Assembly: GCF_964019385.1 (NCBI RefSeq)
Contig: NC_088650.1
Coordinates: 29,550,685 to 29,614,684, forward strand
Direction: 5' to 3'
Length of the DNA stretch: 64,000 nt
From: Sycon ciliatum
Lineage: Eukaryota; Porifera; Calcarea; Leucosolenida; Sycettidae
The notes under the pieces are model-generated. The model worked only from the letters and a program-made list of their open reading frames with translations. It did not search any database and was not told where the DNA came from. A program made the position numbers and the translations under genes. Shown in pieces: positions 25,237-29,261 of this stretch (positions are counted from its first letter, which is position 1; each line of letters begins with the position of its first letter).

Positions 25237-25443
25237 GAGTACTGTAAAACCGGAAAGTCTAACGGCCAAAAAGTTTAACGTTTTTGTAATTTTGGCATGA
25301 TTACGTGCAGAAAGTTTAACAATGGCTACCTGGCCACCCATCTGTATGCGCATCTTTACACAGACATATAGAGATAACGTTTTTTCAAATAACGAAAAAG
25401 AATTGGTCGTTAAAACGTTAGACTTTCCGCTTTTACAGTACTC
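25237..25443. mobile_element. 207-bp MITE
   Basis: The 28-base terminal inverted repeats differ at one position. The left begins GAGTACTGTAAAACCGG and the right end is its complement, finishing TTTTACAGTACTC. The interior is AT-rich and repeats GTTAAAC/GTTTAAC words. Confidence 0.85.
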
Positions 25444-25799
25444 TGATTTTCTCCGATCGAATTTTCGAGTACACGTATTCTTCATCTCCTAAAAATTAAT
25501 TGCAGACCACGGGCACACACGATTGAACCGAGTGGCAGTCATTTTTCTCGGGTATATTGGTTGGTGGGTCATTTGGGCTCTCTCTACTCGTGAACCAATG
25601 TTCACCACACAGTCTGCATATCTGCCGACTGCTACTCTGAAACTGCAGCCGATGATTTCTGTGGTAAATGCATGATGTACAAACGAGTACTCTGCTGATC
25701 TGATTTATTCCGAGTACGATTATTTTTGGAAAAATCGAGCGAGTACTATACTTGAGTAATAATAATATTCAAATAATCTACGTGGAGATAAAAGTTTAA

Positions 25800-27576
25800 T
25801 AATAGCAATGAAAAGTATGAATGCCGCAGACATCACCACGCAACATGACAATTTGTTCAAGGTTTGGTTTTGTGTGTTTCCAAAATCGATTTTCACGTTG
25901 CGATCATCAGTGGAAATACGCAACTAAAGAGATCAAGGGAAAACAAAGGTTAAAAATCCAAAGAAGTGTGACACATGACGGGTAACTTGTGGTAAATATT
26001 ACAAAAAGTGAGAACTAAAATAAAGAGTAAGTGTGACAAACGGGCATGAACAGTGCATCATTGGTCCAAGTCGTTGCCCAGTCTACCTTTCCTTACCTTG
26101 GAAAGGAGAGGCATCACAGACATTGTGCCGCACAATCAAAACGCTAGTTACACAAACATACTTTGCGGCGCACTTCATCCCTGTGTTCACTACGATACGT
26201 GCGTTCACGGTGAGGAAGGATGTCCTACCATCCCACCTATTGAGCCACTTGGTCTACCAATTTGAGTGCCGGAATTGTGATAGCCGGTACGTTGGTAGGA
26301 CCCTTCAACACCTGAGCGCACGTATCAAGCAGCATGTACCACTTCACATGCTGCAGGACGCAGCAAAAGCGAAGCGCCCGAAGCGGGGAAGACCACGCAA
26401 GAACCCGCTCCCTCTACCACCGACACAACCAGAGCAAGTCGAACACACGGTGCAGAGGAAGAGTGGTGGATCACTAAGCCAACCGAATGTGCCTTCTCCA
26501 CCGTTGCCCTTGCCGCCACCGGAGCCACCACCAGTGCCGTTGGTGGCTGGGGTTGGGGAGGAGTCGGCAACAACAACAGTACCGCCAATCACAGAAATTG
26601 AGCCCATTTCTTTGACACAGTATCCGGTTGTGCGGACACCGCAGCACCCTCCGGCGATTGATCCGTGGGTCCAGAGACCACGGAGGTCGACCGCCAATTA
26701 TTCAACCGAAATATATGCTAGGAATGGCCAAGGCCCACGCGGAGCATCGAAGGAGACCGGAAGCCGGGGGCAAAACGGAACACAATCTCGGGACGTAGAT
26801 GAGGTAAGGACAGTGACACGGGACAGACGTAGGAAGGAGAACATGGATGGTATCAGACGACTGACTGGTGGTGAATATGAGTTGGGTGATGATGCGGCGG
26901 ATGACGAGAATACAGATGACGACGAGGCGGATGACGGCGAGGATACAGATGACGACGAGGCGGGTGATGACGAGGCGGCGGATGAAGACGAGGCGGATGA
27001 CGGAGAGACGGCTGGTGGTGATGGTGATAAAACGGACAAGGAGGAGTCAGGTGGCAGGGAAGGTGATGGAGCTGATGAGGGTGAAATTCGTAAGAAGTCA
27101 GCTGTGTATTTGCATTTGTTATCTCGTCCCGATTGTTTGAGTGTGTATGATGATTCCCACTTCTCTGTACTGTGTCGTGCCCGTTATGTCCAGCAGTTGA
27201 AGGTCCTTGAAGCTGTTTGTATTCGTACGCATAAGCCCGATTTGTGTAAGCAAAAAGAACATGTTTTAGCACTTAGGTTATTTTCGTGAGTTTGCACCCC
27301 GTGTTCATGAGTTGTTTCTGCACTGTTCATGCCCGTTTGTCACACTTACTCTTTATTTTAGTTCTCACTTTTTGTAATACTTACCACAAGTTACCCGTCA
27401 TGTGTCACACTTCTTTGGATTTTTAACCTTTGTTTTCCCTTGATCTCTTTAGTTGCGTATTTCCACTGATGATCGCAACGTGAAAATCGATTTTGGAAAC
27501 ACACAAAACCAAACCTTGAACAAATTGTCATGTTGCGTGGTGATGTCTGCGGCATTCATACTTTTCATTGCTATTA
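25800..27576 (+). mobile_element. Penelope-like element remnant with 258-bp inverted repeats
   Basis: The left arm 25800-26057 and right arm 27319-27576 are reverse complements of equal length with a single difference seen by eye (gtaaatatt versus gtaagtatt). Between them lies one long ORF with a split GIY-YIG endonuclease domain and no reverse transcriptase. Penelope-like elements carry a C-terminal GIY-YIG nuclease and repeats that can be inverted in truncated copies. Near-identity of the arms implies recent formation or gene conversion. The arms contain CTGATGA ... GAAA words that resemble hammerhead ribozyme boxes. Confidence 0.75.
26033..27289 (+). CDS. GIY-YIG endonuclease ORF with intradomain AT-hook/acidic insert
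   Basis: The frame is open for 418 codons but begins at a GTG just after a stop. No ATG precedes the nuclease part, so the true start is missing or lies upstream by splicing. Residues about 72-103 read HLVYQFECRNCDSRYVGRTL then SARIKQHVP, the GIY-YIG core with its arginine. Residues 350-418 supply the rest of the domain: SAVYLHLL, FSVLCRAR, and KVLEAVCIRTHKPDLC with the catalytic Glu at about 393. About 250 residues separate the halves: an AT-hook-like KRPKRGRPRKNP, a proline-rich tract, and an Asp/Glu-rich tract (about 283-345). The frame stays open through the insert. The role would be DNA nicking during retrotransposition. Confidence 0.75.
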   Translation: MTNGHEQCIIGPSRCPVYLSLPWKGEASQTLCRTIKTLVTQTYFAAHFIPVFTTIRAFTVRKDVLPSHLLSHLVYQFECRNCDSRYVGRTLQHLSARIKQHVPLHMLQDAAKAKRPKRGRPRKNPLPLPPTQPEQVEHTVQRKSGGSLSQPNVPSPPLPLPPPEPPPVPLVAGVGEESATTTVPPITEIEPISLTQYPVVRTPQHPPAIDPWVQRPRRSTANYSTEIYARNGQGPRGASKETGSRGQNGTQSRDVDEVRTVTRDRRRKENMDGIRRLTGGEYELGDDAADDENTDDDEADDGEDTDDDEAGDDEAADEDEADDGETAGGDGDKTDKEESGGREGDGADEGEIRKKSAVYLHLLSRPDCLSVYDDSHFSVLCRARYVQQLKVLEAVCIRTHKPDLCKQKEHVLALRLFS

Positions 27577-27617
27577 ATAATAATATTAATAACTTTATTA
27601 GGAAAGGATTGGGAGAA

Positions 27618-27738
27618 CTTCAAATTCAAAGGATCAGTCATTGCTCATGACAAGCAGGGTCCCAGGTTCGAGTCCTGGTGGGTCTGGCGTTTTTTTCTCT
27701 TTTCAGGCAGTTCACTTCCCCGACTGATCCTTTGAACT
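27618..27738. repeat. Short inverted repeat with a tRNA T-arm-like centre
   Basis: TTCAAAGGATCAGTC near 27626 pairs with GACTGATCCTTTGAA near 27721-27735. Between them CCAGGTTCGAGTCCTGG (27662-27678) forms a textbook T arm, but no matching acceptor or D arm is found. It is likely a tRNA-derived fragment inside a small element. Confidence 0.55.
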
Positions 27739-27740
27739 TT

Positions 27741-29261
27741 ATTAGGATTATTATTATTATTTAATATTATTATTAAATTTTTGATAGGGCAATCCCCACA
27801 GGCCTAAGGCCTTGCTTTTATGGTACGTACAAATCCCCATTGAAAAGACATAGTGGAGACGAGAAACTGCAAATAGATGTTGGGAACCGCGAAGACCACC
27901 CTTCCTTGCCAAGCTCCCTGAGGGTGTGGAGGGGGGGGGGGGGGGCGGAGGAGGGACATTCCTGCACTGCTTAAAGCAGGATTCACAGGAGCATTTTCAG
28001 AAATTGCTTGTACATTTGTACCAGTTGTAACCGACAAACGCATTCTCATTGAGCTTTGACTTGAGGCACGTCAGCAAGGCGCTGTTGCATCGCTTACGTC
28101 TTGTCGTGATTCTGTGAATGGTATTTTGTGCGAGTTTGCATCGCACGCAGAATCGCAGGTCGTGTCGCATTGCGCAGCACACTGCCAAATTGCTTCTGTG
28201 AATCCCACGTGAATGGAAATTCCAATGGGAATGTAATCCATTGCCAACAGGTGTATTCCCGAGCTGCGCATCATACTGCAAAATTGCTCCTGTGCATGCA
28301 AATGGATTTCATTGCTCTTCTGTAGTTTGGGAAATTCTCGATTATGATAATTCTGCGTGTGTGTGTACACCAGCCCTGAACATACATGTAGGTGACCCTT
28401 ATGCTTTCTTTCTGTATCACTTGTATCTTGCAGGTACATGTATATCACCCCGTGACGACCACATCGAAGTCTGAAATTGAAGTGTGAAGATGCTTCAGCA
28501 ACCCCTTCATATTTTTCCATTGCTTTTATTGTGCTTCTACTGTGCATGTGTGTAACTTGTGGGGTATGCATGTGATGACAATGTATGCCGGTGAGACAGT
28601 CAGATTTTGTCAATGCGTGTAACGTACACCTGCATGCTATCGTTGAAAAGGATCTGCCACTTACGATCTTTGGACGAGTATCAGGTCAGCTTGGTTTTGT
28701 GTGTGCTGTACCAGATGCTGTTCACTTCTCTATCTGTTGGATATGTGACTTTCTGCAAGTTTCTGGTGTATGGTGGCCACTTCTTTGCTTGTCTTTGTAT
28801 GACATTACAATAATTCTGTATTCACTGCTTCCATGGTGTGGTCTGCAAACTGCAATCCTTAGGCAAATATTATCACGGTTTGCAATGTTGTGCTTTGGCC
28901 GCCAGCTTACCTACACATTGTAGTTGAATTATTTTTGTTTCACAACTGACTTCCTGAAGTATGGTGGCCACTGCTTTGCATGGCATTATACAATGTTCAT
29001 CAAGAATTTCCTGTTTGGGTTGTGTGTGTGTGTGTATGTATGTACATGTATGTGTGTGCGTGCCCATGTGTGTGTGTGTGTGCCATGTGCATGTGCGTGT
29101 TTGTCACAAGGTGTCTGTGTGCGGGGTAGCGAGGTGGGGAGGGCTGGAATGTATCAGTGTGCTACTGCAGTTGCATGGCTACATACAGTGCATCGCGCGC
29201 GTGCTCACCATGTTTATCTTCGGAGCTGGGCTGGGGTGGGGAGGGAACAGAAAAAGAACTG
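27741..29261. other. Intergenic region without recognised genes
   Basis: The start (ggcaatccccacaggcctaa) looks like a common retroelement 3' end. A poly-G run (about 15) lies near 27932, and GT-rich sequence near 29020-29095. Two related segments with tatggtggccact occur near 28770 and 28960. No coding gene is seen. Confidence 0.3.

Follow-up and report, generated by a model that had tools for sequence, protein, structure and literature searches.

Penelope-like retroelements (PLEs), among which Penelope of D. virilis, PAc of Anolis (PMC11167929) and Pen of rotifers (PMC3846280) resemble the locus reported here, encode a reverse transcriptase (RT) followed by a C-terminal GIY-YIG endonuclease (EN) in one open reading frame (ORF), as described in these papers. 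Penelope/Poseidon-type elements are described there as sharing direct or inverted pseudo-long terminal repeats (pseudo-LTRs), an optional tail, 5′ truncation and AT-rich targets with our element, and rotifer PLEs as having a comparable layout in which only one member of an inverted pseudo-LTR pair bears the tail (PMC3846280). Low-complexity inserts in PLE ORFs are already known, but the asparagine-rich ones of rotifers separate RT from EN or the RT core from the thumb (PMC3846280). The available parts of PMC11167929 and PMC3846280 mention no AT-hook or long insert within the GIY-YIG fold, a literature search returned no report of an AT-hook inside that fold or elsewhere in a PLE (one PLE survey lay outside its coverage), and PMC7641849 deals with different fusions. 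Here we describe an element in a 64,000-nucleotide stretch of the Sycon ciliatum genome (contig NC_088650.1, positions 29,550,685 to 29,614,684; hereafter the window), which is a PLE of the known type with a long arm, bearing an AT-hook-like motif, inside its nuclease fold.

The feature in question is an ORF at 26033–27289, open over 418 amino acids from a GTG start, and it is practically certain to be the C-terminal GIY-YIG EN of a PLE. A protein search with this ORF returned relatives up to 99–100% identical over portions, and because several of them (P0001, P0031 and others; P numbers denote relative proteins and L numbers fetched genomic loci) also bear an RT, the ORF was recognized as the EN end of a PLE. 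RVT_1 was matched in 21 of 45 aligned members and GIY-YIG in 34 (E up to 1), with RT and C-terminal GIY-YIG found within a single ORF in relatives of the window copy. In a search of the genome (538 Mb), 100 of 11,344 first-look candidates were scored; ten of these matches are enclosed in open frames of 1037–1100 residues, and some copies are arranged in tandem (L016). The ORF is a piece of such a longer RT and nuclease ORF and not a gene of its own, and the window copy is 5′-truncated and without RT.

A preliminary description of the ORF had proposed a GIY-YIG domain split after SARIKQHVP by an in-frame insert of about 250 residues, the two halves forming one fold, and both parts of this proposal are borne out. 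The last residue of SARIKQHVP is 103 and the first of KKSAVYLHLL is 354, which leaves 250 residues between them. In the AlphaFold2 model, which has block means of 93–96 over the N-terminal half, the two halves pack together in one predicted GIY-YIG fold that can be structurally aligned to I-TevI and UvrC, the I-TevI alignment spanning both halves. Pfam PF01541 matches the N-terminal half alone (residues 72–116) at 20.7 bits, under the curated cut-off of 22.6, so membership of the GIY-YIG group rests on the fold and on conserved residues. Across 25 aligned proteins, Y67, Y78, G80, R89 and H93 are invariant and E385 (in the numbering of the 410-residue fragment) is at least 90% conserved; the codon of the catalytic-position Glu is 27209–27211. 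Searches of solved structures were less favorable: Foldseek against the PDB gave nothing significant, with I-TevI at E 2.7, and a sequence search with P0031 and alignment A1 returned RT entries and an unrelated PilX and no nuclease. Only a second comparison, made with VIA-align, placed I-TevI first. The restriction of the Pfam match to the N-terminal half would also fit a true nuclease that stops before the insert and is fused to an unrelated C-terminal half. We rejected this as very improbable, since the I-TevI alignment covers both halves, the halves are 12–21 residues apart in short-linker relatives, and the Glu position is conserved in the C-terminal half. On the predicted model, we are highly confident that both halves form a single GIY-YIG fold. 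The homing endonuclease I-TevI has the same catalytic fold, and its flexible linker joins the nuclease to DNA-binding modules that come after the complete nuclease domain, whereas the putative DNA-binding motif here lies in a loop inside the domain.

The insert is predicted to lack regular structure save for short helices at both ends (AlphaFold2). The AT-hook-like motif, proline-rich tract and Asp/Glu tract ascribed to it earlier were all found, the insert containing KRPKRGRPRKNP (residues 114–125), a proline-rich middle and an acidic last part. AT-hooks have an R-G-R-P core with flanking proline and lysine, and such a core with flanking basic residues is present in RPKRGRPRK (hereafter the hook). 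A motif similar to the second basic motif, RPRRSTANYS, occurs in P0010, P0012, P0014 and P0017. The order of hook, basic motif and acidic tract resembles that of HMGA-type proteins, in which an acidic tail comes after the AT-hooks; the likeness is one of composition, with no homology shown. Some proteins have two hooks (P0051 and L062); in L062, from a related family, the linker is rich in serine and contains the AT-hook-like motifs RPRRGRPPK and KKRGRPPKK.

Conservation across relatives singles out the hook. Linker length was measurable in 34 of 66 rows, the remaining rows lacking one of two landmark motifs, and is 58–255 residues in the 26 rows with the hook and 12–44 in the eight without. 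The helix motif is present in 17 of 18 further relatives, 13 of which have the hook (linkers of 64–276 residues); P0078 has a changed core, RPKRVRPRK, with a linker of 70, and three are hook-less with linkers of 16–30. In the first set, 47 proteins have the helix motif and a long enough sequence behind it, and RGR is found no more than 20 residues after the motif in 38 of them; among the other nine, P0009 has a degenerate motif. In 28 non-redundant relatives, chosen for having RGR, the motif starts at +12 from the helix motif in 25 cases, and column entropy is 0.2–1.8 bits at +12 to +20 and 2.4–3.6 bits further on, the first few post-helix residues being likewise conserved. A tree of the joined halves was built from 31 rows selected on similar landmarks, which did not retain L060, the hook-less family of this genome, although it was submitted. 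All 23 hook rows together with the hook-less P0040 form a clade of 24 with support of 99/99, and the hook label changes twice on the tree, compared with 7.2 times on average after shuffling. Nine rows with linkers of 169–257 residues make up a nested clade (100/97), and lengths of 190–192 residues arose elsewhere. Because the hook clade encloses the nested long-linker clade, the hook would most simply have been gained first and the long arm later. A search with the nuclease region of P0048 returned eight proteins, too small a number for a survey of other animals.

The same genome also contains a hook-less family with an ORF of 843 residues (L060) and a linker of 16 residues. Copies lacking the insert between intact flanks had been expected to speak against the split domain; they do exist between related families, and the domain claim survives. 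Within the window's own family, none was seen among the 100 candidates scored out of 11,344. Apart from these copies, a Sycon gene model named 'sidekick-1-like' (P0052) starts with a PLE nuclease N-terminal half and hook, followed by a short piece of the C-terminal half, no insert, and then Ig/FN3 domains, which would be a mis-annotation or an exon capture.

The ratio of non-synonymous to synonymous differences (pN/pS) was determined for the window's family from 48 full-length gapless copies including the window's, 34 of them distinct, with L047 (eight extra residues) and partial copies excluded; copies were chosen by score, which biases the set towards intact ones, and the frames are the longest open ones. 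The ratio is 0.23 for the N-terminal half, 0.17 for the C-terminal half and 0.90 for the whole insert, within which the middle has 1.09 and the acidic tract 0.46. Between subgroups of a second family (two versus four copies), it is 0.05 and 0.07 for the N- and C-terminal halves, 0.26 for the hook segment and 0.83 for the remaining linker, and inside the larger subgroup it is 0.11 for the hook segment and 0.61 for the linker. In a third family (four of five fetched copies, L059 being excluded for its broken frame), the hook segment has no differences and the linker outside it has a ratio of 0.28, indicating that the arm is not equally free across families. In 72 aligned segments from fetched loci, variant cells number 1 of 468 in the nine residues of the hook and 0 of 571 in RPRRSTANYS, compared with 10 of 4643 in the N-terminal half, 15 of 4557 in the C-terminal half, 152 of 7817 at residues 141–278 and 39 of 4671 in the acidic tract. 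The hook is thus very likely under selection, and much of the remaining arm drifts, with ratios of 0.83–1.09 in two families. The open frame had been taken as a sign of constraint on the whole insert, a reading not supported in view of this drift over most of its length; 51 of the 72 segments stay uninterrupted across the insert, so that finding it open in a single recent copy is unsurprising. What stands is that the element lineage carries the insert in frame with a conserved AT-hook-like motif, and the comparison of paralogues suggested earlier found constraint on the halves and the hook and, in two families, not on most of the arm.

The drift would also be expected if the entire insert were a neutrally tolerated low-complexity expansion of a permissive loop, comparable to the asparagine-rich PLE inserts of rotifers described in PMC3846280. 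Copies differ by whole-codon indels and short-linker families have multiplied too, both in keeping with such an expansion. We nevertheless consider it unlikely as an account of the whole arm, because the hook and RPRRSTANYS form islands no more variable than the nuclease halves, the hook is retained across families with otherwise differing linkers, and the ratios of the acidic tract, of the linker within one subgroup of the second family and of the third-family linker lie below those of the drifting portions. For the hook itself, neutral expansion is already contradicted.

We then consider where the element inserts. The 3′ junction could be read at 69 of 71 loci of the window's family, the window included and two loci being without flank, and a tail is present at 35 of them. 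The tail-free set comprises 33 junctions, one per locus, after reassignment of a tail with a 1-nt deletion and with L041 and L047, apparent duplicates of one site, counted once. These junctions have a mean AT content of 0.82 in the first 20 bases, followed by 0.70 and 0.65, against a window mean of 0.52; 25 of the 33 have at least 70% AT over the first 20 bases, as do 10% of window 20-mers, and (AAT)3 or more lies within 30 bases at 11 of the 33, compared with 0.4% of window 30-mers. Among distinct tail-bearing junctions, 26 have their own target, and (AAT)3 or more was found at 8 of these. Some tail-bearing and tail-free junctions may represent opposite ends of a single insertion. For the second and third families, flanks came from one copy each (L071 and L072), too few to place the element boundaries. 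Inspection by eye showed that the microsatellites targeted by both the window's and the hook-less PLE family adjoin one repeat (TTTGAGGGAAAGAGACAAACGGG...) in eight cases (L016, L017, L018, L022 and L024; L066, L068 and L069), as if these PLEs inserted into the simple-repeat tail of a SINE (short interspersed element)-like element; a script covering 60 bases from the element end caught the TTTGAGGGAAAGAGACAAACGGG repeat at L017 and L022 only. At L023, the 3′ junction is followed by CCTAACCCTAACCC repeats, which are telomere-like, at about 32.5 Mb of contig C1.

With moderate confidence, we favor an explanation in which a PLE nuclease uses a loop-borne hook as a minor-groove anchor. In one PLE clade, the GIY-YIG loop between helix 1 and helix 2 would have gained an AT-hook at a near-fixed distance from helix 1, and in the families of this sponge the loop would later have lengthened to about 170–280 residues through the addition of proline-rich, basic and acidic low-complexity segments. 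Close to the active site, the hook would bind AT-rich DNA in its minor groove and help to hold the nuclease on its target, while the acidic and proline-rich parts may act as a flexible spacer or a charge counterweight. Judging from the motif and its placement, the hook may well contact DNA; that it shifts target choice, and not merely affinity, seems doubtful. Rather unlikely, in our estimate, is the stronger version in which loop-borne hooks, sometimes two in number, are target-selecting modules that redirect a GIY-YIG enzyme, such as away from (TA)n and towards (AAT)n tracts, with the acidic arm tuning it.

Several observations weigh against this explanation. Pfam AT_hook matches neither the ORF nor the hook segment at E up to 10, and for want of a curated-profile match we call the motif AT-hook-like and not an AT-hook. 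In the window's family, pN/pS over the opening 25 residues of the insert is 1.87, for which a common Q/P difference at residue 108, ahead of the hook, is largely responsible. P0040 is hook-less inside the hook clade, and the cores of P0009 and P0078 are altered; because only 100 of the 11,344 candidates were scored, copies that are damaged or lack the insert are under-sampled. RPKRGRPRK could equally serve as a nuclear-localization or RNA-binding stretch on an otherwise passive arm. PLE proteins need nuclear entry and RNA binding, and the motif is short, strongly basic and located where a poorly predicted stretch begins. We regard this as rather unlikely, since the motif has an R-G-R-P core with flanking proline and lysine at a near-fixed distance from helix 1, and an import signal alone should need neither that position nor the glycine. 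The targets of the hook-less family fit this alternative too: all eight junctions fetched for it are AT-rich (0.70–1.00, mean 0.90, each reaching 70% AT or more over the first 20 bases), and seven show (TA)n runs 8 bases or longer, part of which may be the element end. As this hook-less family of the same genome also inserts into AT-rich, (TA)n DNA, the AT preference appears independent of the hook. AT-rich cleavage by PAc is reported in PMC11167929, where the D. virilis nuclease is cited as doing likewise, and an AT-rich target preference is cited in PMC3124438; with published PLE nucleases and the hook-less family alike AT-directed, the preference seems general among PLE nucleases. The window's family does lie in AT-rich DNA, but the earlier suggestion of a hook-driven bias towards such targets is therefore unproven.

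The features of the window copy are collected in Table 1. It is flanked by an inverted repeat of 262 nt (arms 25796–26057 and 27319–27580, 99% complementary), both arms of which are copies of the element's 3′ untranslated region (3′ UTR), or pseudo-LTRs, the left one inverted with the tail outermost and the right one without tail. Because 26033–26057 is the inner end of this repeat, neither the GTG start nor the initial eight residues of the ORF belong to the nuclease, and the coding sequence of the element begins at about 26057. The original delimitation of a nuclease ORF was thus correct for the nuclease but included these eight residues, and what it delimited is a 5′-truncated piece. The exact match of 13 bases, TAATAATAATATT, on both sides is an apparent target-site duplication; the sequence is of a low-complexity (AAT) type that may match by chance, it occurs a third time on the reverse strand (27763–27775), and the first 2 bases of its right copy may be the element's own end. 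The flanking repeats and the apparent duplication could also suggest an independent host gene within an inverted-repeat DNA transposon. This is extremely improbable, because these repeats represent the 3′ UTR of the element itself and recur after the same ORF at other loci, and the long open frames and tandem copies described above argue against it as well. The recurrence of the repeats as 3′ ends of RT-bearing copies refutes this reading, and a stand-alone nuclease gene was likewise rejected.

Table 1. Features of the PLE copy and its nuclease, in positions of the window
Feature	Position	Strand	Evidence
Left copy of the apparent 13-bp target-site duplication	25757..25769		exact match
Inverted pseudo-LTR (3′ UTR), outer short tail about 25770–25799	25770..26057	-	inverted repeat; tail sequence at 25775–25799
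3′ fragment of PLE ORF (EN end and stop), no RT	26057..27289	+	99% identical to end of RT-bearing P0001
N-terminal GIY-YIG half (strands 1–2, helix 1), residues 72–103	26246..26341	+	Pfam PF01541; AlphaFold2; I-TevI alignment
250-residue insert (linker), residues 104–353	26342..27091	+	sequence comparison; prediction
AT-hook-like motif RPKRGRPRK, residues 115–123	26375..26401	+	conservation in genomic copies and relatives
Second conserved basic motif RPRRSTANYS, residues 215–224	26675..26704	+	0 variant cells of 571
Acidic tract, residues 279–353	26867..27091	+	39 D/E and 4 K/R in 75 residues; pN/pS 0.46
C-terminal GIY-YIG half (helix 2, strand 3, helix 3)	27092..27286	+	AlphaFold2; I-TevI alignment; Glu conservation
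3′ UTR/direct pseudo-LTR, tail-less	27290..27574	+	inverted repeat; junction comparison
Right copy of the apparent target-site duplication	27575..27587		exact match

A tblastn search with 59 relatives found no further copies of the element in the window outside 25872–27504. Rfam gave no match of any kind over 25700–27800 (E up to 1), and hence none to the hammerhead ribozyme associated with PLE pseudo-LTRs, although this copy is truncated and divergent motifs may escape detection. The N-termini of P0001 and P0002 are reverse-strand readings of the nuclease C-terminus (compare the reverse-strand ORF at 26853–27272); in these proteins, inverted 3′ ends are joined to differently truncated copies, and their 5′ junctions therefore seem to be of independent origin. 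Upstream of the element lies a 28-nt inverted repeat (25237–25264 and 25416–25443, 96% complementary, spaced by 151 nt), and just outside the element is a SINE-like insertion of 132 bp (27603–27734) with tRNA-like GGTTCGAGTCC, between 12-bp repeats AACTTTATTAGG (27591–27746).

These results suggest that as many as 250 residues can be accommodated in a single loop of a GIY-YIG fold. Among eukaryotic retroelements, PLEs are poorly understood, not least in how they choose their sites. The hook-less family has the same nuclease halves and AT-rich sites as the window's family and differs by its 16-residue linker and lack of a hook, and the microsatellites appear to differ as well, (TA)n at most hook-less junctions versus (AAT)3 or more at a third of the tail-free ones of the window's family. 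A motif retained at a near-fixed position within the catalytic fold of one clade, together with recently multiplied hook-bearing and hook-less families with apparently differing microsatellite targets in one genome, offers a natural comparison for site choice by PLEs.
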